Virus record (IMG/VR): IMGVR_UViG_3300009703_000061
Span: 1-34,571 of that record
Source: a virus
DNA: 34,571 nt
Direction: 5' to 3' (one strand)
A program made the translations under genes and the position numbers. The notes beneath the pieces were generated by a model that saw only the letters and a program-made list of their open reading frames with translations, was not told the DNA's origin and did no database searches. This document shows positions 9,662 to 25,258 of this stretch, in pieces (the first letter of the stretch is position 1; each line of letters begins with the position of its first letter).

Positions 9662-9694
9662 AAAAGGGGTCTTGACAACAGACCCCTTTTTATG
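9662..9694 (+). terminator. Rho-independent terminator after hsp20
   Basis: AAAAGGGGTC (9662-9671) pairs perfectly with GACCCCTTTT (9681-9690) around a 9-base loop and continues into T (9691). This is the clearest terminator in the window. Its loop is TTGACAACA, so the -35 box of the next promoter is in the loop. Confidence 0.88.
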
Positions 9695-9701
9695 TTACAT
9701 T
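9672..9701 (+). promoter_or_regulatory. Sigma70-like promoter inside the hsp20 terminator
   Basis: TTGACA (9672-9677) in the terminator loop, an 18-base spacer and TACATT (9696-9701). The -10 is followed by GGTTCTTATAA, as at the gp55 promoter. It would drive the tandem oxygenases and perhaps the clamp genes. Confidence 0.6.
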
Positions 9702-9702
9702 G

Positions 9703-9722
9703 GTTCTTATAAGTATAAGAAC
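9703..9722 (+). promoter_or_regulatory. Perfect palindrome downstream of the -10: operator-like site
   Basis: GTTCTTATAAGTATAAGAAC is a 9-bp inverted repeat with a 2-base centre, placed 1-21 bases after the -10, where a repressor would block start or elongation. Its core TATAAGTA is shared with the palindrome at 5481-5496 and is close to the late-promoter consensus. Confidence 0.5.
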
Positions 9723-9749
9723 GATTCGTTTTTGAAGGAGAACTATTTT

Positions 9750-10676
9750 ATGGTAGAAGTTACGCACAAAGATAAAACTGAAGAAGAATCAAAGGTTATT
9801 GAAGAAGTTAGAAAAACTGGAAAACAATGGATGGGCGAAACATCAATGGATGAGGTTGAAAAACCAGAACCAGAAGGTGAGAGAGTTAATCTAAAAATCA
9901 ATCAAATACCAGCAATCACATTCTTAGAGGGTAACCTACCCAAAGCCATGTTAGATGAACTCAATGCACACGTTGATGAACACAGAGAAAAAATGGCAGA
10001 TTACTCTGGTAATCTAGTTGGTCAAATCAAACAAACTGAAAAGTCACAACAACTATCTCTGGATAGAGAACACCCAACAGTACAAGGTCTTATGAACTTA
10101 TTGGGAAGTGCTGGTCGTGCATTTCTAAAAACATATGCTGGTCAGATACCGATGGAAGGTGGTGCAGATGCTTTTGATAAAGCACCTGTAGATTGTTTCT
10201 CTATGTGGACAGTTCATAGTTATGAAGGTGACTACAATCCACTGCATGATCACGATGTTTCCTATGACCAGAAATGCATGGCATTCTCAATAATACTTTA
10301 TTGTATGGTGCCTCCACAGATTGCAAAGTTAGGAGATAGTAAACAACTACACTCTAATGGTGGTGCAACTGATGGTTGTACATATTTCTGTTGGGGAACA
10401 AATACTGGTGCAGACCATTTAGTTCTCAAACCAAAAACAGATAGGTATGTAGTTCCAAAAGAAGGTAAGTTTCTAATATTCCCATCTTGGTTAAATCACA
10501 GTGTTGCACCATTCTATGGGCCAGGTGAAAGAAGAACACTATCTGCAAACTTTAGAGTGCCATTCGGTGCATCTGCGAAAGATGAAAGTAGTGGAGATTT
10601 ACATTTCAAAAATATGTTTGAAAGAGATAAAGAACCAGAGGTAACTGCTGACACGCCCATGAGTGACATACTGTAA
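9750..10676 (+). CDS. 2-oxoglutarate/Fe(II)-dependent oxygenase, tandem copy A (copy 2 of 7)
   Basis: Starting at ATG 9750 (GAAGGAG at 9734-9740 upstream) gives 308 residues. An acidic N-terminal tail of about 60 residues precedes the oxygenase core. The signature WTVHSYEGDYNPLHDHD supplies the HxH/HxD iron ligands; GKFLIFPSWLNHSVAPFYG supplies the distal histidine, and ERRTLSANF the 2-oxoglutarate arginine. It is clearly paralogous to the next gene, which shares VGQIrQnEKS, WTVHSxxGDYNPLHDH and NHxVxPFYGxGERRTLxAN. The substrate is unknown. The frame is open upstream to a TTG at 9672, but that lies in the terminator loop and cannot be the start. Confidence 0.82.
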   Translation: MVEVTHKDKTEEESKVIEEVRKTGKQWMGETSMDEVEKPEPEGERVNLKINQIPAITFLEGNLPKAMLDELNAHVDEHREKMADYSGNLVGQIKQTEKSQQLSLDREHPTVQGLMNLLGSAGRAFLKTYAGQIPMEGGADAFDKAPVDCFSMWTVHSYEGDYNPLHDHDVSYDQKCMAFSIILYCMVPPQIAKLGDSKQLHSNGGATDGCTYFCWGTNTGADHLVLKPKTDRYVVPKEGKFLIFPSWLNHSVAPFYGPGERRTLSANFRVPFGASAKDESSGDLHFKNMFERDKEPEVTADTPMSDIL

Positions 10677-10680
10677 TATC

Positions 10681-11529
10681 ATGGAGTCAAATTATCAAGT
10701 AACAACACAAATGCGAAACAAATTCGCAATGCATATGTTTCATGTAAAACTACCTATGGATTTTGTTGATAAGATAAATGCATATATTGATAACACACTT
10801 ATACCACTAGACGATAATTATGGTAAAGTAAAAGGTAATGCAGAACTAGAACATAGTTACTCAAAAGGTCTTGTTGGACAGATACGTCAAAATGAAAAAT
10901 CTGCACAATTAGATTGTAAAGTATTAGAAGATACTGAGGATGCAAAACTTTTGAAGTCTACTCTTGATGCAACCTCTCAAGAATATTTACGTCAGATTGG
11001 TCATGGAGATAGTGTTCCAGATGTATTCGAAGCATGGACAGTTCATAGTTTTGCTGGTGACTATAATCCACTACACGATCATGGTGTAATGTCGCCTGGT
11101 GGTTTATCTATGATTTTATATCTACAAGTTCCAGAGTGCATATCATCACTACCAGACCCAGACGATAAGGGTGGAAGTATTTGGTTCAATGATAGTAGTG
11201 GTGATGTTGATGGTTTTACATATTTTATCTGGGCTCAGAGAAATCAAGATATGTTGAGAAAGTTATATCCAGTAGGTGAAGAATATTTCAAACCTAAAGT
11301 TGGTAGTCTTTTAATATTCCCTAATTGGTTGAAACACGCAGTGATGCCGTTTTATGGTGAGGGTGAAAGAAGAACTTTGGCTGCAAACGCAAATATAATT
11401 TCACCAGAGTTATTTGATTGGAAGAATGCAACTGATGAAGATAGAGCAAAGATACTGAACACTTTCAGAGGAAGTAGAGTTCGTAATGGTGGAGGTGGAG
11501 GAGGTCTTGGTGCAAAGACAAAAGATTGA
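10681..11529 (+). CDS. 2-oxoglutarate/Fe(II)-dependent oxygenase, tandem copy B (copy 3 of 7)
   Basis: A 282-residue paralogue of the preceding gene. It lacks that gene's long acidic N-terminus but has WTVHSFAGDYNPLHDHGV, VGSLLIFPNWLKHAVMPFYG and ERRTLAANANI, giving the two iron histidines, acid and 2-oxoglutarate arginine. The ATG at 10681 is chosen over an in-frame GTG at 10663; neither has a strong ribosome binding site. The C-terminus ends in a run of six glycines and LGAKTKD. The codons of this run double as the GGAGG ribosome binding site of the next gene. Confidence 0.8.
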   Translation: MESNYQVTTQMRNKFAMHMFHVKLPMDFVDKINAYIDNTLIPLDDNYGKVKGNAELEHSYSKGLVGQIRQNEKSAQLDCKVLEDTEDAKLLKSTLDATSQEYLRQIGHGDSVPDVFEAWTVHSFAGDYNPLHDHGVMSPGGLSMILYLQVPECISSLPDPDDKGGSIWFNDSSGDVDGFTYFIWAQRNQDMLRKLYPVGEEYFKPKVGSLLIFPNWLKHAVMPFYGEGERRTLAANANIISPELFDWKNATDEDRAKILNTFRGSRVRNGGGGGGLGAKTKD

Positions 11530-11850: not shown

Positions 11851-12525
11851 ATGAAACTAAGTGAACACACAATATCGGTTCTAAAGAACTATGCAAATAT
11901 AAATCAAAACCTAGTTGTCAAAGAGGGTAATGAGTTACTCACTATGTCATCTATGAAAAACATAGTTGCAAAGGCAACTGTCGCAGAAAGTTTTCCTAGA
12001 GAACTTGCAATCTATGACTTGAATGAGTTCCTTGCAGCTCTATCATTATTCAAAAGTCCTGTCTTAGATTTTGATGATCAGTTCGTCACAATCAAAGAAG
12101 AAAACAATCCTACTAATTCTTTGAAGTATTTTTACTCTGACCCATCTGTGGTGCAGACACCATCAAAGACAATCACTATGCCGTCAGAGGAAGTTACCTT
12201 TGAGTTAAGTAATAGTGACTTATCTAAAATGAAGAAAGCATCAGCAGTTATCGGTGCTCCAGATATGACACTTGAAAGACTCAATGGTAGTTCATCTCTT
12301 GTTGCAAAAGATAAAAAGAATGATACTGCAAATAACTATTCATTAGACGTAAATACTAATGGTGATGGTGAGTTTAAGTTTTTCTTCAAAGTCGAAAATC
12401 TAAAACTTATGGATGGTTCTTATGATGTTGCGATATCATCAAAGAATATTAGTCATTTTAAAAACAAAAGTTCTGATGTAGAATACTGGATTGCACTTGA
12501 ACCAGAGTCAACATACTCTGCATGA
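11851..12525 (+). CDS. 45: Sliding clamp gp45
   Basis: A 224-residue PCNA-type clamp (T4 gp45 has 228) that holds DNA polymerase on DNA and, in T4, activates late transcription with gp55. The N-terminus MKLSEHTISVLKNYANINQN, followed by FPRELAIYDLNEFLAALSLF and VLDFDDQFVTI, follows the gp45 pattern. The start at ATG 11851 has AAAAGGAG (11837-11844) upstream. The order gp45 - gp44 - gp62 - RegA - gp43 is that of T4, with accessory genes inserted. It overlaps the next gene by four bases (ATGA at 12522). Confidence 0.95.
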   Translation: MKLSEHTISVLKNYANINQNLVVKEGNELLTMSSMKNIVAKATVAESFPRELAIYDLNEFLAALSLFKSPVLDFDDQFVTIKEENNPTNSLKYFYSDPSVVQTPSKTITMPSEEVTFELSNSDLSKMKKASAVIGAPDMTLERLNGSSSLVAKDKKNDTANNYSLDVNTNGDGEFKFFFKVENLKLMDGSYDVAISSKNISHFKNKSSDVEYWIALEPESTYSA

Positions 12526-13115
12526 CGGAAACTTTTATATACGAAACTATGTTGAGTGATGTATCACTCTGTGATGCGTTGATTGATTATCATAATAACA
12601 ATCTAGAATATAAAGCTAGAGGACAAACTGGTTCTGGTGTAAGTAATGCAAAGATATCAACTGATGTTTTTGTTCATGCTGGAATACAAAATCCTATAGT
12701 CTTTATGTATGTAAAAGAACTATTTGATGCAGTCAATAAATATTTTGACAAATATAACTTGAGTGATATGCTTACAGTTACGATAAAAGAAACTTGGAAC
12801 ATTCAACACTACAAACCAAATGAGGGGTTTTTTGGTTGGCACTGTGAAAGAAGTGCGTATCAGTCAGATCAGAGAGCGTTAGTGTTTATGACATATCTCA
12901 ACGATGTGAGTGATGGTGGTGAAACAGAATTTTTTCATCAAAAGTTAAAAGTGAAACCAGTAAAAGGTAAAACAGTGATATGGCCAACAGACTTTACACA
13001 TTTGCATAGAGGCGTAACATCACCTACTGAAGACAAGTACATTGCTACGGGATGGTTCAATTTTTTAGATGCGATGGATGTTCACAAAATGAATATGGAT
13101 AAAGTCAAGTCTTGA
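12522..13115 (+). CDS. 2-oxoglutarate/Fe(II)-dependent oxygenase, prolyl-4-hydroxylase-like (copy 4 of 7)
   Basis: A 197-residue oxygenase. IQHYKPNEGFFGWHCERS gives the first histidine with Glu in the place of the usual Asp (HxE rather than HxD). FMTYLNDVSDGGETEFFHQK is the typical prolyl-hydroxylase strand, and VIWPTDFTHLHRGVTSP gives the second histidine; DKYIATGWFNF provides a Lys where Arg or Lys binds 2-oxoglutarate. The HxE variant may still bind iron but should be tested. It sits between clamp and clamp-loader genes. The substrate is unknown. Confidence 0.82.
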   Translation: MTETFIYETMLSDVSLCDALIDYHNNNLEYKARGQTGSGVSNAKISTDVFVHAGIQNPIVFMYVKELFDAVNKYFDKYNLSDMLTVTIKETWNIQHYKPNEGFFGWHCERSAYQSDQRALVFMTYLNDVSDGGETEFFHQKLKVKPVKGKTVIWPTDFTHLHRGVTSPTEDKYIATGWFNFLDAMDVHKMNMDKVKS

Positions 13116-14072: not shown

Positions 14073-14084
14073 GGGGAGTTGGAT

Positions 14085-14648
14085 ATGCAAGAACAATATG
14101 ATTGGTGGCCATTTGAAACCCCAATAATAGATAAAAAATTAATTCAGATGTTTAATAAAACCATATTAGAGAATTATCATGATACTGAGGATGCAGTGCA
14201 TGGTGCAACAGATAATGATGGTAATTATTTAAAGAATATAAAACCTAAAAATATTATTTTAAAACATATACCAGATCCTTATAGTGAAATACTTAGTATG
14301 GCATTCAATGTTTGTCACTATAAATTTGGTTTCAATACTTTTCCACAAAATGTTTGGGATGAATTATTATATAATGTTTATTCTAGTGACATTAAAGGTA
14401 GATATGGTGAACATCATGATGGATCTAGACTTCTGTCACACGATATAAAAATGACATTTTTACTAAATTTATCAGAAGAACCATATGAAGGTGGTGATTT
14501 TATCATTGATAAAAAACCTCAACATTTTTTTAGAGAGCCTGGGACTGCTATTTTGTTTAAATCGTACATAAAACACGAAGTCACACCTGTTACTAGAGGT
14601 GAGAGAAAATCATTGACGTATTTCATATGTGGGCCTAAGTTTCAATGA
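14085..14648 (+). CDS. 2-oxoglutarate/Fe(II)-dependent oxygenase, PKHD-type (copy 5 of 7)
   Basis: 187 residues from ATG 14085; GGGGAG (14073-14078) is six bases upstream, and a TTG at 14079 is too close to it. GRYGEHHDGS gives the H-x-D iron motif, FLLNLSEEPYEGGDFIID the family strand, GTAILFKSYIKHEVTPV the distal histidine, and RGERKSLTYFICG the 2-oxoglutarate arginine. It belongs to the PiuC/PKHD-like oxygenases; the substrate is unknown. It seems more AT-rich in codon choice than gp44 and gp62 on either side, suggesting a recent insertion at this junction. Confidence 0.84.
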   Translation: MQEQYDWWPFETPIIDKKLIQMFNKTILENYHDTEDAVHGATDNDGNYLKNIKPKNIILKHIPDPYSEILSMAFNVCHYKFGFNTFPQNVWDELLYNVYSSDIKGRYGEHHDGSRLLSHDIKMTFLLNLSEEPYEGGDFIIDKKPQHFFREPGTAILFKSYIKHEVTPVTRGERKSLTYFICGPKFQ

Positions 14649-15904: not shown

Positions 15905-18388
15905 ATGAAATTTTATACAAATGTTACTCGCTGGGGTAATAACCTACTAATCAGAGAATATGTAAACGGACAAAGACTTAATCGTAGGGTTAAGTATTCT
16001 CCTACACTTTACATGAGAGTTGCAAAACCAACAGAGTATAAAACTCTTGATGGTAATTTTGTGACTCCAGTTTCACATGAAACAATGAAAGAGGCAAGTG
16101 ATTGGATTGACAACTATAAGAACCAATCACATCTAGTCTTTGGTAATACACAGTATGCATATTCTTACATTGCAGACCAATATCCAAATCGAGTAGATTG
16201 GGATATAGAGAAACTTCTCATAGTGACTATCGACATTGAAGTTGCGTGTGAGAATGGTTTTCCTAATCCAGAAGCTGCAATAGAACCATTACTATCAATT
16301 ACAATCAAGAATCATCAGACAAAAGAAATAGTTGTCTGGGGTATAGGTGACTTCCAAACAAAACGTGATGATATAAAATATGTCAAGTGTGAAAGTGAAC
16401 GTCATCTGATACAAGACTTTCTTGCGTTCTGGGATTATAATCAACCAGATATTATTACAGGTTGGAATACAGAGTTCTTTGATATTCCCTATCTATGTAA
16501 TCGTATCATCAATCTTTGTGGTGAAGATGAGGTCAAAAGACTATCGCCTTGGAAAAGTGTAAACAGTAGAAGTATTTTTAAGATGGGTCGAACACATCAA
16601 GTATATGATATACAAGGTGTTTCGCATCTTGACTACTTTGATCTATATCGTAAGTTCACCTACACTGCACAAGAGTCATATCGACTTGACCACATTGCAT
16701 ATGTCGAGTTGGGTGAACGTAAAGATGACAATCCTTATGAAACATTTCGTGATTGGTATACAAATGACTATCAATCATTTATTGAATATAATATTATGGA
16801 CGTTGAACTTGTCGATAGATTAGAAGACAAGATGAGATTGATTGAACTTCTTCTGACTATGGCCTATGAAGCAAAGGTAAATTACATGGACGTTCTTGGT
16901 TCTGTTAAGTATTGGGATATATTGATTTACAATTATCTACGAGAAAAGAATATCATGATACCACAGAAAAACGCATCAAGTAAATCAGAGAAGTTTGAGG
17001 GTGCATATGTGAAAGACCCTCAAGTTGGCCAACACAAGTGGGTCATGTCGTTTGACTTGAATAGTTTGTATCCACATCTTATAATGCAGTATAACATATC
17101 GCCTGAGACTCTAGTGTCACAAAATAAAGTAAAAGATATGTCTGTAGATAAACTATTGTCTAAAAAAACTGACACATCATTTATGAAGAGTGCGACACTC
17201 ACACCGAATGGTGCATTGTTCAAAACTAGTAAAAAAGGTTTTCTCCCAGAGATTATGGAGAGTATGTACAATGATCGTGTGAAGTATAAGAAACTCATGT
17301 TGCATTCTAAACAGGAGTATGAGAATACCAAAGACCCTAAACTTCTCAAGGATATATCGAAGTATGATAATATACAGATGGCCAAGAAGATATCACTCAA
17401 CTCTGCTTATGGTGCAATTGGTAATCAATACTTTCGTTACTATGACCTACTTATCGCAGAGGGTATCACTACTGCTGGTCAGTTGTCTATTCGTTGGATT
17501 GAGAATAAGGTCAACCAGTATATGAACAAACTACTAGACACAGACAATAAGGATTATGTGATTGCATCTGATACAGATTCAATCTATGTGACATTTGATA
17601 AGTTAGTAGAAAAGTTCAATCCTAAAAATCCAGTAAACTTTCTGGATACAATTGCAAAAGAGAAACTAGAACCATTTATTGATAAGTCTTATCAAGAACT
17701 AGCTGACTATACAAATGCGTATGACCAGAAGATGCAGATGAAACGAGAAGTGATTGCAGATAAAGGTATCTGGACAGCGAAGAAAAGATATATTCTGAAT
17801 GCACATGATGTCGAAGGTGTTCGATACAAAGAACCACAACTCAAGATGCTCGGAATTGAGGCTGTCAAGTCAAGTACGCCCGCACCTTGTAGACAGAAGA
17901 TTAAAGATGCACTTAAAATAATTATGAGTGGTGATGAAAAGATGCTAAATAGTTTTATACAAGAATTTAGGGAAGAGTTTATGGAGTTACCACCAGAGGA
18001 GATTGCATACCCAAGATCGTTGAATGGTCTGTCAAAGTTTTCGTCATCAGATAGTCTGTTTGCAAAAGGCTCCCCCATCCATGTCAAAGGCGGTATTCTG
18101 TATAATCACTTGGTCAAGAAAAACAAACTAGGACACAAGTATCCTTACATTCAAGAAGGTGATAAGATTAAGTTCCTACATCTCAAGTTGCCAAATATCT
18201 ATCAATCAAGTGCAATGTCTTTTATAACAAAGTTACCAAAAGAACTTGACTTTCACAAAATAATCGACTATAATGTACAATTCGAAAAAAGTTTTGTAGA
18301 ACCACTCAAGTTCATTACAGACAAAATACTTTGGAGAATAGACGATAGTTATGGAACACAAGGAACATTGGAGGATTTTTTTACATGA
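15905..18388 (+). CDS. 43: DNA polymerase gp43 (family B)
   Basis: An 827-residue family B polymerase with proofreading (marine T4-like forms are near this size; T4 has 898). Exonuclease motif I DIEVACENGFPNP has D110 and E112, followed by GWNTEFFDIPYL (Exo II). Polymerase motif A DLNSLYPHLIMQYNIS is near 384-399, motif B KKISLNSAYGAIGNQYF near 491-507 and motif C ASDTDSIYV near 554-562. The C-terminal end, DSYGTQGTLEDFF, is the clamp-binding tail expected for gp43. No intein or split is seen. A promoter lies directly upstream, and the next gene starts at the stop codon (ATGA). Confidence 0.97.
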   Translation: MKFYTNVTRWGNNLLIREYVNGQRLNRRVKYSPTLYMRVAKPTEYKTLDGNFVTPVSHETMKEASDWIDNYKNQSHLVFGNTQYAYSYIADQYPNRVDWDIEKLLIVTIDIEVACENGFPNPEAAIEPLLSITIKNHQTKEIVVWGIGDFQTKRDDIKYVKCESERHLIQDFLAFWDYNQPDIITGWNTEFFDIPYLCNRIINLCGEDEVKRLSPWKSVNSRSIFKMGRTHQVYDIQGVSHLDYFDLYRKFTYTAQESYRLDHIAYVELGERKDDNPYETFRDWYTNDYQSFIEYNIMDVELVDRLEDKMRLIELLLTMAYEAKVNYMDVLGSVKYWDILIYNYLREKNIMIPQKNASSKSEKFEGAYVKDPQVGQHKWVMSFDLNSLYPHLIMQYNISPETLVSQNKVKDMSVDKLLSKKTDTSFMKSATLTPNGALFKTSKKGFLPEIMESMYNDRVKYKKLMLHSKQEYENTKDPKLLKDISKYDNIQMAKKISLNSAYGAIGNQYFRYYDLLIAEGITTAGQLSIRWIENKVNQYMNKLLDTDNKDYVIASDTDSIYVTFDKLVEKFNPKNPVNFLDTIAKEKLEPFIDKSYQELADYTNAYDQKMQMKREVIADKGIWTAKKRYILNAHDVEGVRYKEPQLKMLGIEAVKSSTPAPCRQKIKDALKIIMSGDEKMLNSFIQEFREEFMELPPEEIAYPRSLNGLSKFSSSDSLFAKGSPIHVKGGILYNHLVKKNKLGHKYPYIQEGDKIKFLHLKLPNIYQSSAMSFITKLPKELDFHKIIDYNVQFEKSFVEPLKFITDKILWRIDDSYGTQGTLEDFFT

Positions 18389-20028
18389 AAACTATATACA
18401 AAAAAGAAGATTTACTTTCTATACCAAAGCAAGAACAAGATAAACATAATGATGGATTTCCCATTTTTAAGAGGTGTGAGATATCAATCCAACTGTATTT
18501 TGAACTTTTGATTAAAGATAAACATTTACAAGCTAAGATGTTGGAAACTGCTGTAGAAAAGTTTTTTTCAGATCCAGAACAGATAATTGATCCTAATGAT
18601 AAATGTAATAGAGATGATAAAGGTGATATTAAAAAGAAACAGGGTATCTTAACAACTATATTTAAAAACAGACCTTTACCAGATTTATCACTAATAGTTA
18701 AACAAAAGTGGAGACTTCTAAAAGATGGGAGGAGTGAGTGTACAGTGGCCGCAGTAAATGATGGTGGTCACAGAAGTAGGACTATACTAGAGTTTATGTT
18801 GGGCAAATTTAAAACTGGTTCTAACACAGTTTTTCACTCTAAAAATGGACAGATCGTAAACATTGGTAATATGACATATAAAGAGATAGAAAAGGAATAT
18901 CCTTTAGCGATAGAACAGTTGAAAGAATACAAATTAGCTTTGGTCATACAGTGGAATCTTGATGCGAAACAAAGAAAAGAAGATTTTGATAACAGAAACA
19001 CTGTTACTATTGTGAAAGAACAAGAGGGCAGGAACGCATTTGATGATAACTTGATAGCTGATGCAGTTCGTAATACCACCAGAAAAGTTGATGGTGAAAT
19101 TGAACCAAACCCAGTGCATAACTTGTATAAAAACAATATTTTTACTTTTCCAAATTCTAGGATGGTATACGATGAGATAGTTGCCAAAATCATGAAAATG
19201 ATTTCTGAATCAGATGAGAAAGGTGCAAAAGTGGATCTATCACAGGGTGCCTTAGATGAGTTTTATTTAAAAGGTAGTTATGCTGGAACAGATACTGGCG
19301 AGTATGTGGTTCAACCAAAAGTGTTTGAAAAACTCAAGAAGGAAACATACTTTGTCTTAGACTTTTTATACGGAGTTTTGACAAACTGGCCAACAAAAAT
19401 TTATCCAGTAGAACAACACGTTGTACACGCACTTTTGAGATGGTATTTCCAATACAAAAAAGATATACAGAATAAACATATGACATTGATATATGATAAA
19501 AAGTTAGTAATAGATTATAAGGTCTTTGCCAAAAAATTTGCATTAGAAGTAATGAAAAAAAATGTAGATGATAAATCAGTTGATGTATGGACAACAGGTG
19601 AGAAAAAACAAAGAGAAAAAGGAGATGCTTTCAAGGGTTATCTTGGTCAATTTAATACAGGTGACAAAACACAAAAAAGTATTGATTGGATTATGGAAAG
19701 TTTTTATTCAGTGGTGGCATCAGTAGAGGATGAGAAAAAATTTGGTCTGACCCATTTTGACTCAAGACCTGCTTTTAAACAAGATGATATAATTAACAGG
19801 TGGTTAGATCTTGGAGAAAAAGATGATTTGGGTAACTCTATTGAAGATGATGACATCGAAGGTGATCATGATATTCCAAGAAGCTGGGGTGTTGTAAGAG
19901 GTGGTATCACTTGTCCAGAAACTAACATGAGAATTTTGCACCGAAAGGACAATAACAAAAAATCAAATAAAATGACTTTTAATGAGTTTAAAGAAAGTTT
20001 ACAAAATGAAACTGAAAAAGCTGCTTGA
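18385..20028 (+). CDS. DUF262-like/HNH nuclease-like protein (GmrSD type)
   Basis: A 547-residue two-part protein. The N-terminal half has AAVNDGGHRSRTILEFML (about 122-139), like the (D/N)GxxR core of DUF262/ParB-like nucleotidase domains, and FDNRNTVTIVKEQEGRNAF, like the N-T...E-R-N-A segment of DUF262. The C-terminus has an HNH pattern: EGDHDIPRSWGVVRGG (H495), then NMRILHRKDNNKKSNK (N514, N523). GmrSD-type enzymes of this layout cut modified phage DNA. Here it could cut competitor or host DNA, or act as a free-standing homing endonuclease next to gp43. It has an AT-rich codon style unlike gp43, and overlaps gp43 by four bases and the PP-loop gene by 23. Confidence 0.72.
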   Translation: MKTIYKKEDLLSIPKQEQDKHNDGFPIFKRCEISIQLYFELLIKDKHLQAKMLETAVEKFFSDPEQIIDPNDKCNRDDKGDIKKKQGILTTIFKNRPLPDLSLIVKQKWRLLKDGRSECTVAAVNDGGHRSRTILEFMLGKFKTGSNTVFHSKNGQIVNIGNMTYKEIEKEYPLAIEQLKEYKLALVIQWNLDAKQRKEDFDNRNTVTIVKEQEGRNAFDDNLIADAVRNTTRKVDGEIEPNPVHNLYKNNIFTFPNSRMVYDEIVAKIMKMISESDEKGAKVDLSQGALDEFYLKGSYAGTDTGEYVVQPKVFEKLKKETYFVLDFLYGVLTNWPTKIYPVEQHVVHALLRWYFQYKKDIQNKHMTLIYDKKLVIDYKVFAKKFALEVMKKNVDDKSVDVWTTGEKKQREKGDAFKGYLGQFNTGDKTQKSIDWIMESFYSVVASVEDEKKFGLTHFDSRPAFKQDDIINRWLDLGEKDDLGNSIEDDDIEGDHDIPRSWGVVRGGITCPETNMRILHRKDNNKKSNKMTFNEFKESLQNETEKAA

Positions 20029-20857
20029 AAAATACATAGAAGTAAACGTACCAAATAAAAATGTAGCAGTTTTGATGGGAGGTGGTGTCGATGCGATATC
20101 TGTGGCTCTGTCTGCACATGATGTTGGTAAGGTAGTCCATGTCTACAGTTTTCATTTAGAGGGTGATGAGTCTTATGATTACCTTAAGGCAAAAGAAATA
20201 TCACAATATATGGGTTGGAAGTTTATCGGTGTCAATGTTCCTAAAACAAATATTATAGAAGACTGGCATAGACTTGTAAAATTAAAATGCAGAAAGAAGA
20301 CTCATTTTGAATGTGTGTTTCCATTTTTGTATGTTTATGAGAAGGTAAAACAAAAACACGTTATCACAGGTTGGGGTGCAGATGCTTATTTTGGCCCATC
20401 TAAAAAAGCGATGATGCGATATTCTAGTCCAATAAAGTGGGATAATTATACAAGATACTGTAAAGATCATAATCAAACACAATTAACTTTTGATGAATTT
20501 CGAAATGCATACTTAGATGGTGACTGTGCTGGTCTGAAAGAACATACAAGACTTGCAGAGTTACACAATAAAAAACATATCACACCATATCTTGACGAAA
20601 AAGTTAGAAGTTATCTTATGAAAAAGTCATGGACAGAATTGAATACACCAAGACAGAAAGAAACAATAAGAAAAGCCTTTACAAAACTAAAAAAGTTTGG
20701 TAATATAAAACCACATATAAATTTACATCTAGGTAGTGGAGTAGATAAGTTGTTTGAAACATTGCTAAATAATGATGATATAAATTTTAAAGGTAGAAAA
20801 AGAATGATGGATATATGTCGAGATTGGTATGAAAAAAATGCAGTATTACCCATATAA
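20006..20857 (+). CDS. Asparagine-synthetase-like PP-loop ATPase, possible amidoligase
   Basis: 283 residues from ATG 20006 (an in-frame ATG at 19982 is possible). The PP-loop NVAVLMGGGVDAISVAL corresponds to the SGG(L/V)DS loop that adenylates a carboxylate or carbonyl, with both serines replaced (GGGVDA). A second motif, VITGWGADAYFGPSKK, matches the GEGADELFGGY loop of asparagine synthetase domain 2. The N-terminal glutaminase domain of AsnB is absent, so ammonia or another amine would be the donor. It overlaps both neighbours (23 and 29 bases), a DUF262/HNH gene and a C5 methyltransferase. I infer amidation of a carboxylated DNA base; a role in tRNA or amino-acid metabolism is an alternative. 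Confidence 0.72.
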   Translation: MKLKKLLEKYIEVNVPNKNVAVLMGGGVDAISVALSAHDVGKVVHVYSFHLEGDESYDYLKAKEISQYMGWKFIGVNVPKTNIIEDWHRLVKLKCRKKTHFECVFPFLYVYEKVKQKHVITGWGADAYFGPSKKAMMRYSSPIKWDNYTRYCKDHNQTQLTFDEFRNAYLDGDCAGLKEHTRLAELHNKKHITPYLDEKVRSYLMKKSWTELNTPRQKETIRKAFTKLKKFGNIKPHINLHLGSGVDKLFETLLNNDDINFKGRKRMMDICRDWYEKNAVLPI

Positions 20858-21986
20858 TTTAAAAGACGTTTACAATGCAGCTGAACAGAATAAGTTTACT
20901 GTGATTTCAACTTTTGCTGGGGGTGGTGGTAGTTCAACAGGGTATAAACTTTCTGGTGGAAACATACTCGCAGTAAATGAGTTTATTGATGAGGCCAGAA
21001 CCACTTATAGAGAAAACTACCCATCAACTCCTATAATACCTGACGATATAAAAGATTTGTCTGGACAAGATATTTTAGATGTTGCTGGTATCGGTGTTGG
21101 TGAGTTGGATATATTAGATGGTAGCCCACCTTGTTCTGCATTTAGTGTTGCTGGTAAATTATCACACAGTAGTGATGGAAAACACTCTGATGGTTGGGGT
21201 CAAACAAAAAACTATTCTGATGGTAAGATGGTGGAGAACATTGAGGATTTATTCTTTGAGTTCTTGCGTATTGCAAAAGATATCAAACCTAAGATTATTA
21301 TTGCAGAGAATGTTGCTGGTCTAACAGTAGGTGAGGCCAAAACATATTTTAATAAAATACAAAATACATTTGAAGAAATAGGATATGATGTATCTGCAAA
21401 AGTTTTAGATAGTCGATACTTTGGTGTAAGTCAGACACGCACAAGAGTTTTCTTCATAGGTATTAGAAGTGATATAACAGAAAAAGTAGGGTTGACATTT
21501 CTAAACATATCTAGTATATTTCCAGTAGAGAGTAAACAATTAGTTCCTCTGGGTCAAGCGTTAGAGGGTTTAGTTTATGATGATGAGGAAGTCAAGATGT
21601 TAACAGAGAAGTTTTCTAAAACTGCATATTGGAAAGATACAGGTAGTAAAATGCCAACCAATCCAGATAAAGTTTTGACAGGTGCAGACTATCACTACAA
21701 AGGACATCACTTTAATCTAAAAAGAGTATCACTTAAAACACCAGCTCCAACTCTTACTGCGATGGGTAGTAATGATACAACTGCTGGTGCGTTTCATTGG
21801 AGTGAACCTAGAAAACTTACAATCGGTGAACTTAAAAGAATACAATCATTACCAGACGATTTTAAACTTACTGGTAAATGGAATCAGAAATCAGAACGTA
21901 TAGGTAGAATGGTGCCACCATTGTTACTCAAGACACTCGCAGACTCAGTTTATGAAAAAGTTATAAAGGTATACAAAAATGGCTGA
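20829..21986 (+). CDS. Cytosine-C5 DNA methyltransferase with atypical motif X
   Basis: A 385-residue C5 methyltransferase with all catalytic blocks: motif I STFAGGGGSSTGY (about 28-40), motif IV GSPPCSAFSVAG with the nucleophile C102, motif VI AENVAGL, motif VIII QTRTRVFFIG, and a target-recognition region at about 250-320. Motif IX-like LKRIQSLPDDFKLTG is followed by motif X RIGRMVPPLLL (357-367), where the usual QxGNxVPP has R357 for Gln and R360 for the near-invariant Asn. A basic residue at that Asn is what lets engineered enzymes use carboxy-SAM. With a carboxy-SAM synthase-like gene directly behind it, the product may be 5-carboxymethylcytosine. The start could also be ATG 20838. Plain methylation remains the conservative reading. 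Confidence 0.9.
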   Translation: MKKMQYYPYNLKDVYNAAEQNKFTVISTFAGGGGSSTGYKLSGGNILAVNEFIDEARTTYRENYPSTPIIPDDIKDLSGQDILDVAGIGVGELDILDGSPPCSAFSVAGKLSHSSDGKHSDGWGQTKNYSDGKMVENIEDLFFEFLRIAKDIKPKIIIAENVAGLTVGEAKTYFNKIQNTFEEIGYDVSAKVLDSRYFGVSQTRTRVFFIGIRSDITEKVGLTFLNISSIFPVESKQLVPLGQALEGLVYDDEEVKMLTEKFSKTAYWKDTGSKMPTNPDKVLTGADYHYKGHHFNLKRVSLKTPAPTLTAMGSNDTTAGAFHWSEPRKLTIGELKRIQSLPDDFKLTGKWNQKSERIGRMVPPLLLKTLADSVYEKVIKVYKNG

Positions 21987-22668
21987 CTTCACATTCGCAC
22001 ATAGAGAAGAAGGGTTTGACAAACACATAGAACAATCTATTCGTGGTTATTCAGACTTGATACAAGATGTGATATCTTTATCTCGACACTTCATAGAAGA
22101 CAATACTAACGTAGTTGACATTGGTTGTTCTACTGGAAAGATGACTAAGGCTTTGATTGATTATAATTTAGATCATTGCAATAATACAAAGTATATCGGT
22201 CTTGAGATTGCAGAGGGTTTTCAAGGAGATCTGCAAAAAAGAAAAGAAGAGATTAACAAGTATTATAGAAATGTTAGGTTTGAAGATAGTGATGCAAGGT
22301 GGTATGAATATGAAGATTGTTCTTTGATAACATCTATATTTACGTTACAGTTCATGCCGAAGTCTGACAGAGAGAAGTTGATAAAAGATATCTATGATGG
22401 TCTTATGTGTGGGGGTGCATACATATTTGCAGAGAAAACAATCTGTGAAAATGCGTTGGTTCAAGACATGATAACTTTTAATTACTATGACTACAAAAGA
22501 AAATCTTTTAGTGCAGAAGATATCATGGACAAAGAACGAACACTAAGACACATGATGAAACCAAATACATGGAAAGAAATAGAGAAGATGGTTACAGATG
22601 CTGGGTTCAGTGTTGTTCAACCATTCTGGAGAAACCACGCATTTGTTGGTGCGTTGGCAGTTAAGTGA
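21979..22668 (+). CDS. cmoA: CmoA-like carboxy-SAM synthase
   Basis: A 229-residue Rossmann methyltransferase-fold protein. The start ADFTFAHREEGFDKHIEQSI and RGYSDLIQDVISLS resemble the F-F-D..V...F...I..SVPGY of CmoA. The SAM loop is VVDIGCSTGKMTKAL (about 44-58), and the C-terminal part YKRKSFSAEDIMDKERTL, then AGFSVVQPFWRNHAFVGALA, tracks the CmoA end (KR..GYS..EI..KR..., AGF...F..FNFGSLVA). CmoA converts SAM and prephenate to carboxy-SAM for tRNA wobble uridine modification. No CmoB gene is in the window, and the gene overlaps the C5 methyltransferase by eight bases, so supply of carboxy-SAM to that enzyme is inferred. It could instead be a general methyltransferase. Confidence 0.75.
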   Translation: MADFTFAHREEGFDKHIEQSIRGYSDLIQDVISLSRHFIEDNTNVVDIGCSTGKMTKALIDYNLDHCNNTKYIGLEIAEGFQGDLQKRKEEINKYYRNVRFEDSDARWYEYEDCSLITSIFTLQFMPKSDREKLIKDIYDGLMCGGAYIFAEKTICENALVQDMITFNYYDYKRKSFSAEDIMDKERTLRHMMKPNTWKEIEKMVTDAGFSVVQPFWRNHAFVGALAVK

Positions 22669-22685
22669 TGAGGAGATCGAAATAC

Positions 22686-22874
22686 ATGGCCAAAGTTGAG
22701 AACTTAGAAATGCCTCGTGAAGGTTTAGTAAGACAAGAAATAATAAGTTACGAGGAAGATAGAAAAGGTATGATTACTATAAGAAGAGCAATCAGACATT
22801 ATTATGAGGATGGTGTGGATTTTATAGATTACACACATTCTGAACCACTAACCAGATGGGGTATAAAAAAATGA
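22686..22874 (+). CDS. Small hypothetical protein before MazG
   Basis: 62 residues from ATG 22686 (AGGAG at 22671-22675, ten bases upstream; earlier in-frame GTG 22665 and ATG 22668 lie before or at that site). It has mixed charge: EMPREGLVRQEIISYEEDRK, then MITIRRAIRHYYEDGVDFID and [10 protein letters not shown]. No domain is recognised. The stop overlaps the MazG start (ATGA at 22871). Confidence 0.65.
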   Translation: MAKVENLEMPREGLVRQEIISYEEDRKGMITIRRAIRHYYEDGVDFIDYTHSEPLTRWGIKK

Positions 22875-23197: not shown

Positions 23198-24210
23198 ATG
23201 ATTTTTTAAAAGATATAATAAAAGAAACTGGTAATGAATATGCATCACTTGTTGCAGATGGAGTAGAGGCTGGTGATACTGATACATTTATCGACACAGG
23301 TAGTTATATATTCAATGCGTTACTGAGTGGTAGTATCTATGGTGGATTACCATCTTCAAAAATTACAGCACTAGCAGGGGAGTCCGCCACAGGGAAGACG
23401 TATTTTTTATGTGGTATCGTCAAAAACTTTTTAGATGCAAACCCAGATAGTGGTGTAGTATACTTTGAAAGTGAAAGTGCGATTACGAAACAGATGATTA
23501 TTGATAGAGGTATCGACCCTAATAGAATTGTTATCGTTCCAGTTACCACAGTGCAAGAGTTTCGTACACAATCACTCAAAGTGTTGGATAGATATATGCA
23601 ACAAGACGTTGATGTTCGTAGACCAATGTTTATGTGTCTTGACTCACTTGGTATGTTGTCTACCACGAAAGAAGTAGAGGATACGGCAGATGGTAAAGAA
23701 ACAAGAGATATGACTAGAGCACAAGTTCTCAAAGCTGCGTTTCGTGTGTTGACATTGAAACTAGGTAAAGCAAAAGTTCCTATGGTTGTTACCAATCACA
23801 CTTATGATGTCGTTGGTTCTATGTTCCCAACAAAAGAGATGGGTGGTGGTTCTGGTCTGAAGTATGCAGCTTCATCTATCGTCTATCTGTCTAAGAAAAA
23901 AGAAAAAGACGGAACAGAGGTGATTGGTAATATTATACATTGTAAAAATCACAAGTCAAGAATTACTGTAGAGAACAAGATGGTTGATGTTCGATTGACA
24001 TATAATAAAGGTCTTGACAAATACTACGGACTACTTGACCTCGCACTCAAGTATGATATCTTCAAGTCGGTGTCTACTCGTATTGAACTACCAGATGGCA
24101 CGAAACAATATGCAAAGACAATCAACAATGACCCAGAAAAGTTCTTTACTGAAGACATTATGAAACAATTAGATGAGTGTGCAGATAAAGAATTTAGATA
24201 TGGCGAGTGA
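23194..24210 (+). CDS. uvsX: Recombinase UvsX (RecA/Rad51-like)
   Basis: A 338-residue strand-exchange protein (T4 UvsX is about 390; marine forms are shorter). It has an N-terminal [20 protein letters not shown], Walker [14 protein letters not shown] (about 60-72), the catalytic Glu in [12 protein letters not shown], Walker [13 protein letters not shown], and the DNA-binding loop region [11 protein letters not shown]. It ends with the acidic [12 protein letters not shown] tail. It works with gp46/gp47, polymerase and gp41 in recombination-dependent replication. It overlaps MazG by four bases and the next oxygenase by 11. Confidence 0.96.
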
Positions 24211-24694
24211 AGTTCAAGTATATGATAATTTTTTAAGTAAGGCTGATTTTGATGAGTTGAAAAAAATACTTTTAGGTTTTAATTTTCCTTACTATTTCCA
24301 TACTTCTAAAGTTTCTGATGGAGATGGATTTCCTCAATTTACACATATCTTTTATGAAAAACATAATATTAACAGTGATTATTGTGATAATCTGAATCCC
24401 ATATTAGATAAATTAAATCTCGTATCATTGATAAGAATAAAAGTAAATTTACAATTAAAAGATACTGAAGTTAGAGTAACAGGTATGCATCATGATGTTC
24501 AAAATCCGATGGAAAACCAGAAGACAGGAATATTTTATATGAATACAAATAATGGTAAAACTGTATTTGAAAATGGAGAAGAGATTGATAGTGTTGAAAA
24601 CAGAATGATAATCTTTCCAGCATTAAAACAACACGCTGGTACAACTCATACAGACACTATGTATAGATGTCTAATTAACTTTAACTGGTTTTGA
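24200..24694 (+). CDS. 2-oxoglutarate/Fe(II)-dependent oxygenase (copy 6 of 7)
   Basis: 164 residues from ATG 24200 (in-frame upstream codons lie inside uvsX). [20 protein letters not shown] is the typical entry to this fold. [10 protein letters not shown] carries the H-x-D pair, [18 protein letters not shown] the middle strands, [15 protein letters not shown] the distal histidine, and [11 protein letters not shown] the 2-oxoglutarate arginine. Short oxygenases of this kind are widespread in marine T4-like phages; substrates are unknown. It seems more AT-rich in codon choice than uvsX. Confidence 0.83.
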
Positions 24695-24700
24695 GGTAAA

Positions 24701-25258
24701 ATGGAAACATTCATAAAAACATATGAAAATGCAATACCACACGTTCTGTGTGATATGCTGATTGAAAAGTTTGATGCAAACACAGATCAGTGGGAAAATA
24801 GAGATAAACGAACTGAGGATAGAGGTAATCTAAAATTCAACGAGGTACATCTTTTCAAATATATGGACACTTGGAAAGAAGAAGTGCAAGCACTCGCAGA
24901 CTTATTCAAGATATACGTTGATGACTACAAAAACCAATATAGTGAGTTCATGTTCCCACCCAAGTATGGTATCGAACCATTCAAAATGAAGAAGTATGAA
25001 GCAAATGGTTTGGACGAGTTTGGTTGGCACGTTGATGTAAACTCAACTGGAAGTATGAATAGATGGTTAGCATTCTTTTGTTATTTGTCTGATAATGATG
25101 AGGGATACACAAGTTTTCCATATCAGAAAGTTTCAACAGATTGTAAGAAGGGAACTATTGTAATGTTCCCACCAATGTGGCCATGGCTACATCAAGGTGT
25201 GAAACCAGTAAAGAAACCGAAGTATTTTTTAGGAAGTTATTTACATTATGTCGATTAG
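24701..25258 (+). CDS. 2-oxoglutarate/Fe(II)-dependent oxygenase (copy 7 of 7)
   Basis: A 185-residue oxygenase, METFIKTYENAIPHVLCDML at the start. DEFGWHVDVNS has the H-x-D iron pair, WLAFFCYLSDNDEGYTSF the core strand, KGTIVMFPPMWPWLHQGV the distal histidine, and KPKYFLGSYLHYVD a Lys likely to hold 2-oxoglutarate. It resembles prolyl-4-hydroxylase-like proteins. It directly follows copy 6 but differs strongly from it, so the pair is not a recent duplication. GAGG at 24693-24696 is a close ribosome binding site. Confidence 0.83.
   Translation: METFIKTYENAIPHVLCDMLIEKFDANTDQWENRDKRTEDRGNLKFNEVHLFKYMDTWKEEVQALADLFKIYVDDYKNQYSEFMFPPKYGIEPFKMKKYEANGLDEFGWHVDVNSTGSMNRWLAFFCYLSDNDEGYTSFPYQKVSTDCKKGTIVMFPPMWPWLHQGVKPVKKPKYFLGSYLHYVD

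Follow-up and report, generated by a model that had tools for sequence, protein, structure and literature searches.

A putative CmoA/CmoX/CmoY DNA hypermodification cassette in a T4-like phage, with an altered ligase PP-loop and a GmrSD-like partner gene

What would a phage make with three overlapping genes that encode an AsnB-like ligase, a cytosine C5 methyltransferase and a CmoA-like protein? The window, by which we mean the whole stretch of DNA analyzed, is a single virus record of 34,571 bases, and we put the probability that it carries a CmoA/CmoX/CmoY DNA hypermodification cassette at about 85%. In such a cassette CmoA would convert SAM and prephenate to carboxy-SAM, CmoX would pass its carboxymethyl group on to cytosine C5 in the phage DNA after replication, and CmoY would then join an amine, likely glycine or another amino acid, to the resulting 5-carboxymethylcytosine (5cxmC). 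Homology to enzymes of proven function gives strong support to the first two steps, and the third, amide ligation, is likely. As the first-pass annotation described, cmoY, cmoX and cmoA overlap head to tail on the plus strand; all three ORFs are intact, and the overlaps measure 29 nt (cmoY/cmoX) and 8 nt (cmoX/cmoA). A large partner gene overlaps the start of cmoY by 23 nt, and a small ORF (22665–22874) comes after cmoA. We placed the start of cmoY at the ATG at 20006 (the mechanical ORF begins at 19982) because its relatives start at the equivalent position. The features are as follows.

18385..20028, + strand: partner gene, 547 aa; resembles GmrSD; N-terminal half with DGGHR box (DUF262/ParB-like), C-terminal HNH domain (D-H-N-N)
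20006..20857, + strand: CmoY-like ATP-dependent amide ligase (predicted), 283 aa; AsnB synthetase domain only
20078..20095, + strand: variant CmoY PP-loop, residues 25–30, GGGVDA versus SGGVDS; variant also in L087 and L172
20829..21986, + strand: CmoX-like DNA cytosine C5-carboxymethyltransferase (predicted), 385 aa; SpCmoX identity and 8YF3 match
21132..21134, + strand: codon of the CmoX catalytic Cys102, SPPC motif; aligns with SpCmoX Cys98
21906..21908, + strand: codon of CmoX Arg360, equivalent to SpCmoX Arg350 (carboxymethyl-group binding) in the alignment with SpCmoX and relatives
21979..22668, + strand: CmoA-like carboxy-SAM synthase (predicted), 229 aa; SpCmoA identity, TIGR00740 and 4GEK matches

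The neighbors of the cassette form a T4-like replication module composed of a sliding clamp, a clamp loader, a RegA-type translation repressor and DNA polymerase B, together with a RecA/UvsX-like gene and a DnaB-like helicase. Among isolates, its polymerase places the window closest to the Methylophilales phages Melnitz (65.6% identity), with Synechococcus phages next. Five genes in and around this module match 2OG-Fe(II) oxygenases (9672–10676, 10663–11529, 12522–13115, 14079–14648 and 24701–25258), and a sixth candidate (24173–24694) matches PHROG 274, which is labeled endonuclease V. The dinucleotide odds ratios of the window are 0.69 for GC and 0.50 for CG, both taken without a control against other phages.

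The cassette has a characterized counterpart in Synechococcus phage S-B43 (MN018232), in which CmoA makes carboxy-SAM, CmoX forms 5cxmC at GC and CmoY ligates glycine to this base to give the glycine amide; the pathway has been demonstrated in vitro, the glycine adduct (nucleoside m/z 343.1) is present in virion DNA, and CmoX plus CmoY are sufficient on expression in E. coli (PMC12783734). The accompanying survey of IMG/VR, UniProtKB and MGnify gave totals of 5,615 for CmoX, 4,257 for CmoA, 2,251 for the ligase and 1,660 for ParBc neighbors, which were recorded as being of unknown function, and a cluster of AsnB-type, glutamine-using ligases was also reported (PMC12783734). The window may well be one of the surveyed sequences. 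Judged by sequence, its CmoX (about 59% identity), CmoA (55%) and CmoY (40%) are orthologues of the S-B43 enzymes. The two phages share the same three genes in overlapping arrangement, a CmoX that keeps both the SPPC cysteine and the carboxylate-binding arginine, and a ligase that lacks a glutaminase domain; they differ in gene order (partner-Y-X-A in the window, A-Y-X in S-B43), and the window, unlike S-B43, has a more distant CmoY with the PP-loop GGGVDA, an extra GmrSD-like partner gene and no known cultured host. The window is thus a further copy of the CmoA/CmoX/CmoY system with two odd features and not a new pathway, since the pathway was already published in December 2025 (Yang et al. 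2025). The route that the first-pass annotation had proposed, from cytosine through 5cxmC to an amide, agrees with the S-B43 pathway and its orthologous proteins, but it was not new and its last enzyme has a changed loop here. The reactions in this phage, their target motif, the amine and the working of CmoY with its altered PP-loop are what we infer from this comparison.

CmoX is a complete cytosine C5 methyltransferase, as had been proposed: it matches the Pfam DNA_methylase model at 6.4e-56, and its nearest solved structure is that of SpCmoX (8YF3, phmmer 1e-148). It has the C5-methyltransferase fold with the SPPC catalytic cysteine (Cys102), and the motif-X asparagine is replaced by arginine (Arg360). 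All six published SpCmoX contacts, Phe25, Glu47, Phe48, Asp69, Cys98 and Arg350 (PMC12783734), are identical in the window, where they correspond to Phe29, Glu51, Phe52, Asp73, Cys102 and Arg360. The SPPC motif is found in 61 of 61 non-redundant CmoX relatives, and 58 of the 59 relatives readable at position 360 have arginine, the Melnitz methyltransferase alone having leucine. By homology, CmoX is predicted to use carboxy-SAM and to make 5cxmC, and the earlier suggestion that a basic residue at the motif-X asparagine permits carboxy-SAM use agrees with the presence of Arg360 and with the experimentally shown S-B43 pathway.

The earlier call of a CmoA-like protein is likewise upheld by matches to NCBIfam TIGR00740 (4.8e-34, below the equivalog cut-off of this model) and to the CmoA structure 4GEK, the nearest solved structure (1e-23); homology spans the full length of the protein, including that to the biochemically active SpCmoA. 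In E. coli CmoA, Arg199 forms a salt bridge to the carboxylate (PMC3663124). A pairwise alignment places Glu186 of the window protein opposite this arginine, which speaks against the assignment; SpCmoA, a proven carboxy-SAM synthase, also has glutamate there, and a different residue may take over the role of Arg199.

The annotations that the CmoX and CmoA families bear would allow CmoX to be an ordinary 5-methylcytosine methyltransferase and CmoA to serve tRNA in forming cmo5U. We consider this scarcely credible given the replacement of the motif-X asparagine by Arg360, the finding that wild-type SpCmoX takes Cx-SAM only (PMC12783734), the tight linkage of the two genes and the lack of a CmoB match. 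The last point had been noticed at the outset and extends to the window record and six related contigs, none of which has a CmoB match, although these contigs (83–204 kb) are fragments, so that absence is not proof.

The first-pass annotation had called for a search for CmoA homologues beside C5 methyltransferases in other phages, and the association recurs. Of 81 loci, comprising 80 IMG/VR loci found with CmoX and the window, 78 have CmoA, in almost every case no more than 41 nt from CmoX, and this pairing exceeds chance. The junction between polB and cmoX takes two main forms: at 23 loci polB runs up to cmoX or into a slight overlap with it, with neither partner nor ligase between them, whereas at 17 loci, including the window, a gap of 1.8–2.8 kb accommodates a partner gene together with the ligase. 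L048 alone has a partner-type gene but no ligase. These counts are descriptive, since some of the loci are redundant and the distances derive from the ends of alignments. CmoY thus belongs to an insert of two genes at this junction, and the paired presence or absence of both genes points to a role for the partner in the service of the ligase or of what the ligase makes. In a wider set of ligase loci, which was gathered partly by the PP-loop pattern and is unusable for PP-loop statistics, an ORF of 90 aa or more lies immediately upstream in 116 of 118; six classes, mostly proteins of 350–550 aa, take in 96 of these upstream ORFs.

The window ligase is CmoY-like by homology. The AsnB-like fold proposed earlier stands, with a Pfam Asn_synthase match of 1.1e-8 and an AlphaFold2 model (pLDDT 92.9) whose best matching folds are beta-lactam synthetase and AsnB synthetase domains, but the PP-loop that was part of the same claim is changed. 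The window loop is VLMGGGVDAISV and that of the family VLLSGGVDSISV; the motif SGGxDS is absent, and both near-invariant serines are replaced (S25G and S30A) to give GGGVDA. An alignment of 33 ligases has 62 columns with conservation of 90% or more; the window protein deviates in six of them (M2K, L24M, S25G, S30A, P112E and G127A), three within the PP-loop motif, and it keeps all of the family invariants K98, E102, D126, R166, K218, H237, R264 and R266. A sequencing error was considered as the source of the loop change and ruled out: the change is shared by L087, which is 99.98% identical over 5.8 kb, and by the divergent L172, which comes from another dataset and has polB DNA 83% identical to that of the window. 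After position 13, the L172 and window ligases differ at 2 of 56 aligned amino acids, and their ligase DNA is 92.6% identical; since the ligase DNA is closer than the polymerase DNA, the ligase may have been exchanged recently. The variant loop is genuine and has been maintained.

With both PP-loop serines replaced, we regard the activity of the window ligase as uncertain and the final step as unproven for this copy. CmoA and CmoX might work and CmoY be dead or strongly impaired, leaving bare 5cxmC in the phage. Every other ligase with a readable loop at the CmoX-anchored loci has SGGVDS or SGGADS (a few pattern-matcher calls at truncated genes or other sites were not counted as loop variants), and CmoA and CmoX occur with no adjacent ligase in phages S-CRM01 and RN05-S and at the 23 IMG/VR loci where polB abuts cmoX, so bare 5cxmC may be tolerated. 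We nevertheless find a dead ligase fairly unlikely in view of its intact ORF, its other invariant residues, the conservation of GGGVDA in L172 and the CmoY of an Erwinia Alexandravirus, whose loop, SSGLDG, likewise lacks the final serine. A working ligase might instead use ammonia to form a primary amide, 5-carbamoylmethylcytosine, the product listed first in the first-pass annotation. The AsnB-like fold would suit this chemistry, as would the full-length AsnB-type ligases beginning with MCGI in two relatives and the reported cluster of such enzymes (PMC12783734), yet an N-terminal glutaminase domain is missing from the window ligase, and the protein groups with the glycine-using SpCmoY, which makes ammonia very improbable. 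We therefore favor an amino-acid amide over a primary amide on account of the missing glutaminase domain, so that of the two products foreseen, an amide or another amine adduct, the amino-acid form is the likelier; going by homology, glycine or a different amino acid is the most probable amine.

Related genes in other phages show further arrangements. S-CRM01 (L003 7312–9149) and RN05-S (L004 7289–9128) are cultured cyanophages in which CmoA adjoins a CmoX 59–61% identical to that of the window; unlike the window, their neighborhoods contain neither CmoY nor the partner, and they are natural candidates for bare 5cxmC. In Erwinia phage pEa_SNUABM_1 (L005 4018–6855), DUF1611 and alanine-racemase-N-type PLP proteins are encoded directly upstream of the CmoY-like gene with loop SSGLDG and could provide a phage-made or D-amino-acid amine substrate. 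Methylophilales phage Melnitz-3 (L006 4010–7552) has, next to its polymerase, a related C5 methyltransferase with leucine at the Arg360 position; a Tet_JBP oxygenase comes after it, along with a class-0 partner-type gene. Here the slot may house another cytosine route together with a partner of similar kind. At L053 (6557–7963) and L075 (6242–7666) the ligase slot is occupied by a full-length AsnB-type protein (MCGI start) with a glutaminase domain, matching the glutamine-using cluster of PMC12783734.

The partner protein resembles those of the GmrSD type, its HNH motif appears intact, and it is a candidate nuclease. GmrSD enzymes combine a DGxxR box, located in their N-terminal half, with a C-terminal HNH set of the form D-H-N-N (PMC4619093). 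The partner has both: its N-terminal half carries VNDGGHRSRTI, which resembles the DGQQR/DGQHR box of GmrS and DndB, and its HNH set is D494-H495, N514 and N523, in which the histidine and both asparagines do not vary across 15 relatives. Pfam HNH gives a weak match to the window protein (0.025) and a clear one to a relative, L015 (3.7e-6), and HNH nucleases, Cas9 and 4h9d among them, are hit by the family profile. The best Foldseek match is BrxU (7p9k), a GmrSD enzyme, but this fold match is weak (E=0.049, from a model with mean pLDDT 54.6) and amounts to no more than a hint. In contrast to GmrSD and BrxU, the partner is phage-encoded beside a modification cassette and has no Pfam match to DUF262, despite its DGGHR box, or to DUF1524. 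No PADLOC match to named defense-system families was obtained for the window protein, and no relative of it was found among sequenced phages.

A single family for all partners was not supported: profile–profile comparison of class 1, to which the window partner belongs, yielded no significant match to any of three other classes, and the sole similarity was a short match of the DGGHR box with the GNHR/GVHR boxes of class 3. An obligate role in the pathway was rejected, given that in S-B43 cmoA lies directly upstream of cmoY and CmoX plus CmoY sufficed in E. coli. L172 combines its near-identical ligase N-terminus with a partner of a different type, class-0-like by eye and without scoring, and no DNA match to the window partner was found in it; partner and ligase therefore appear to be exchangeable separately.

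Two further ideas may be joined in a single speculative reading, which we hold to be a long shot. The partner and CmoY would make up a cassette open to exchange, with the partner as a GmrSD-like HNH nuclease that senses the cytosine modification, the 5cxmC amide marking the phage's own DNA and the nuclease attacking unmarked DNA as in a phage-borne restriction–modification pair, and the GGGVDA ligase would be functional, with altered nucleotide handling or a different amine.

Under the reading that we prefer, a CmoA/CmoX/CmoY hypermodification cassette, what is new here is the change of the PP-loop serines and the two-gene insert of partner and CmoY at the polB/cmoX junction. These features raise the questions of whether an AsnB-type ligase can work once its PP-loop serines are gone and of what keeps the ligase in the company of a large and variable partner gene. 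Chiefly, the window adds another marine T4-like lineage to a pathway published in December 2025.
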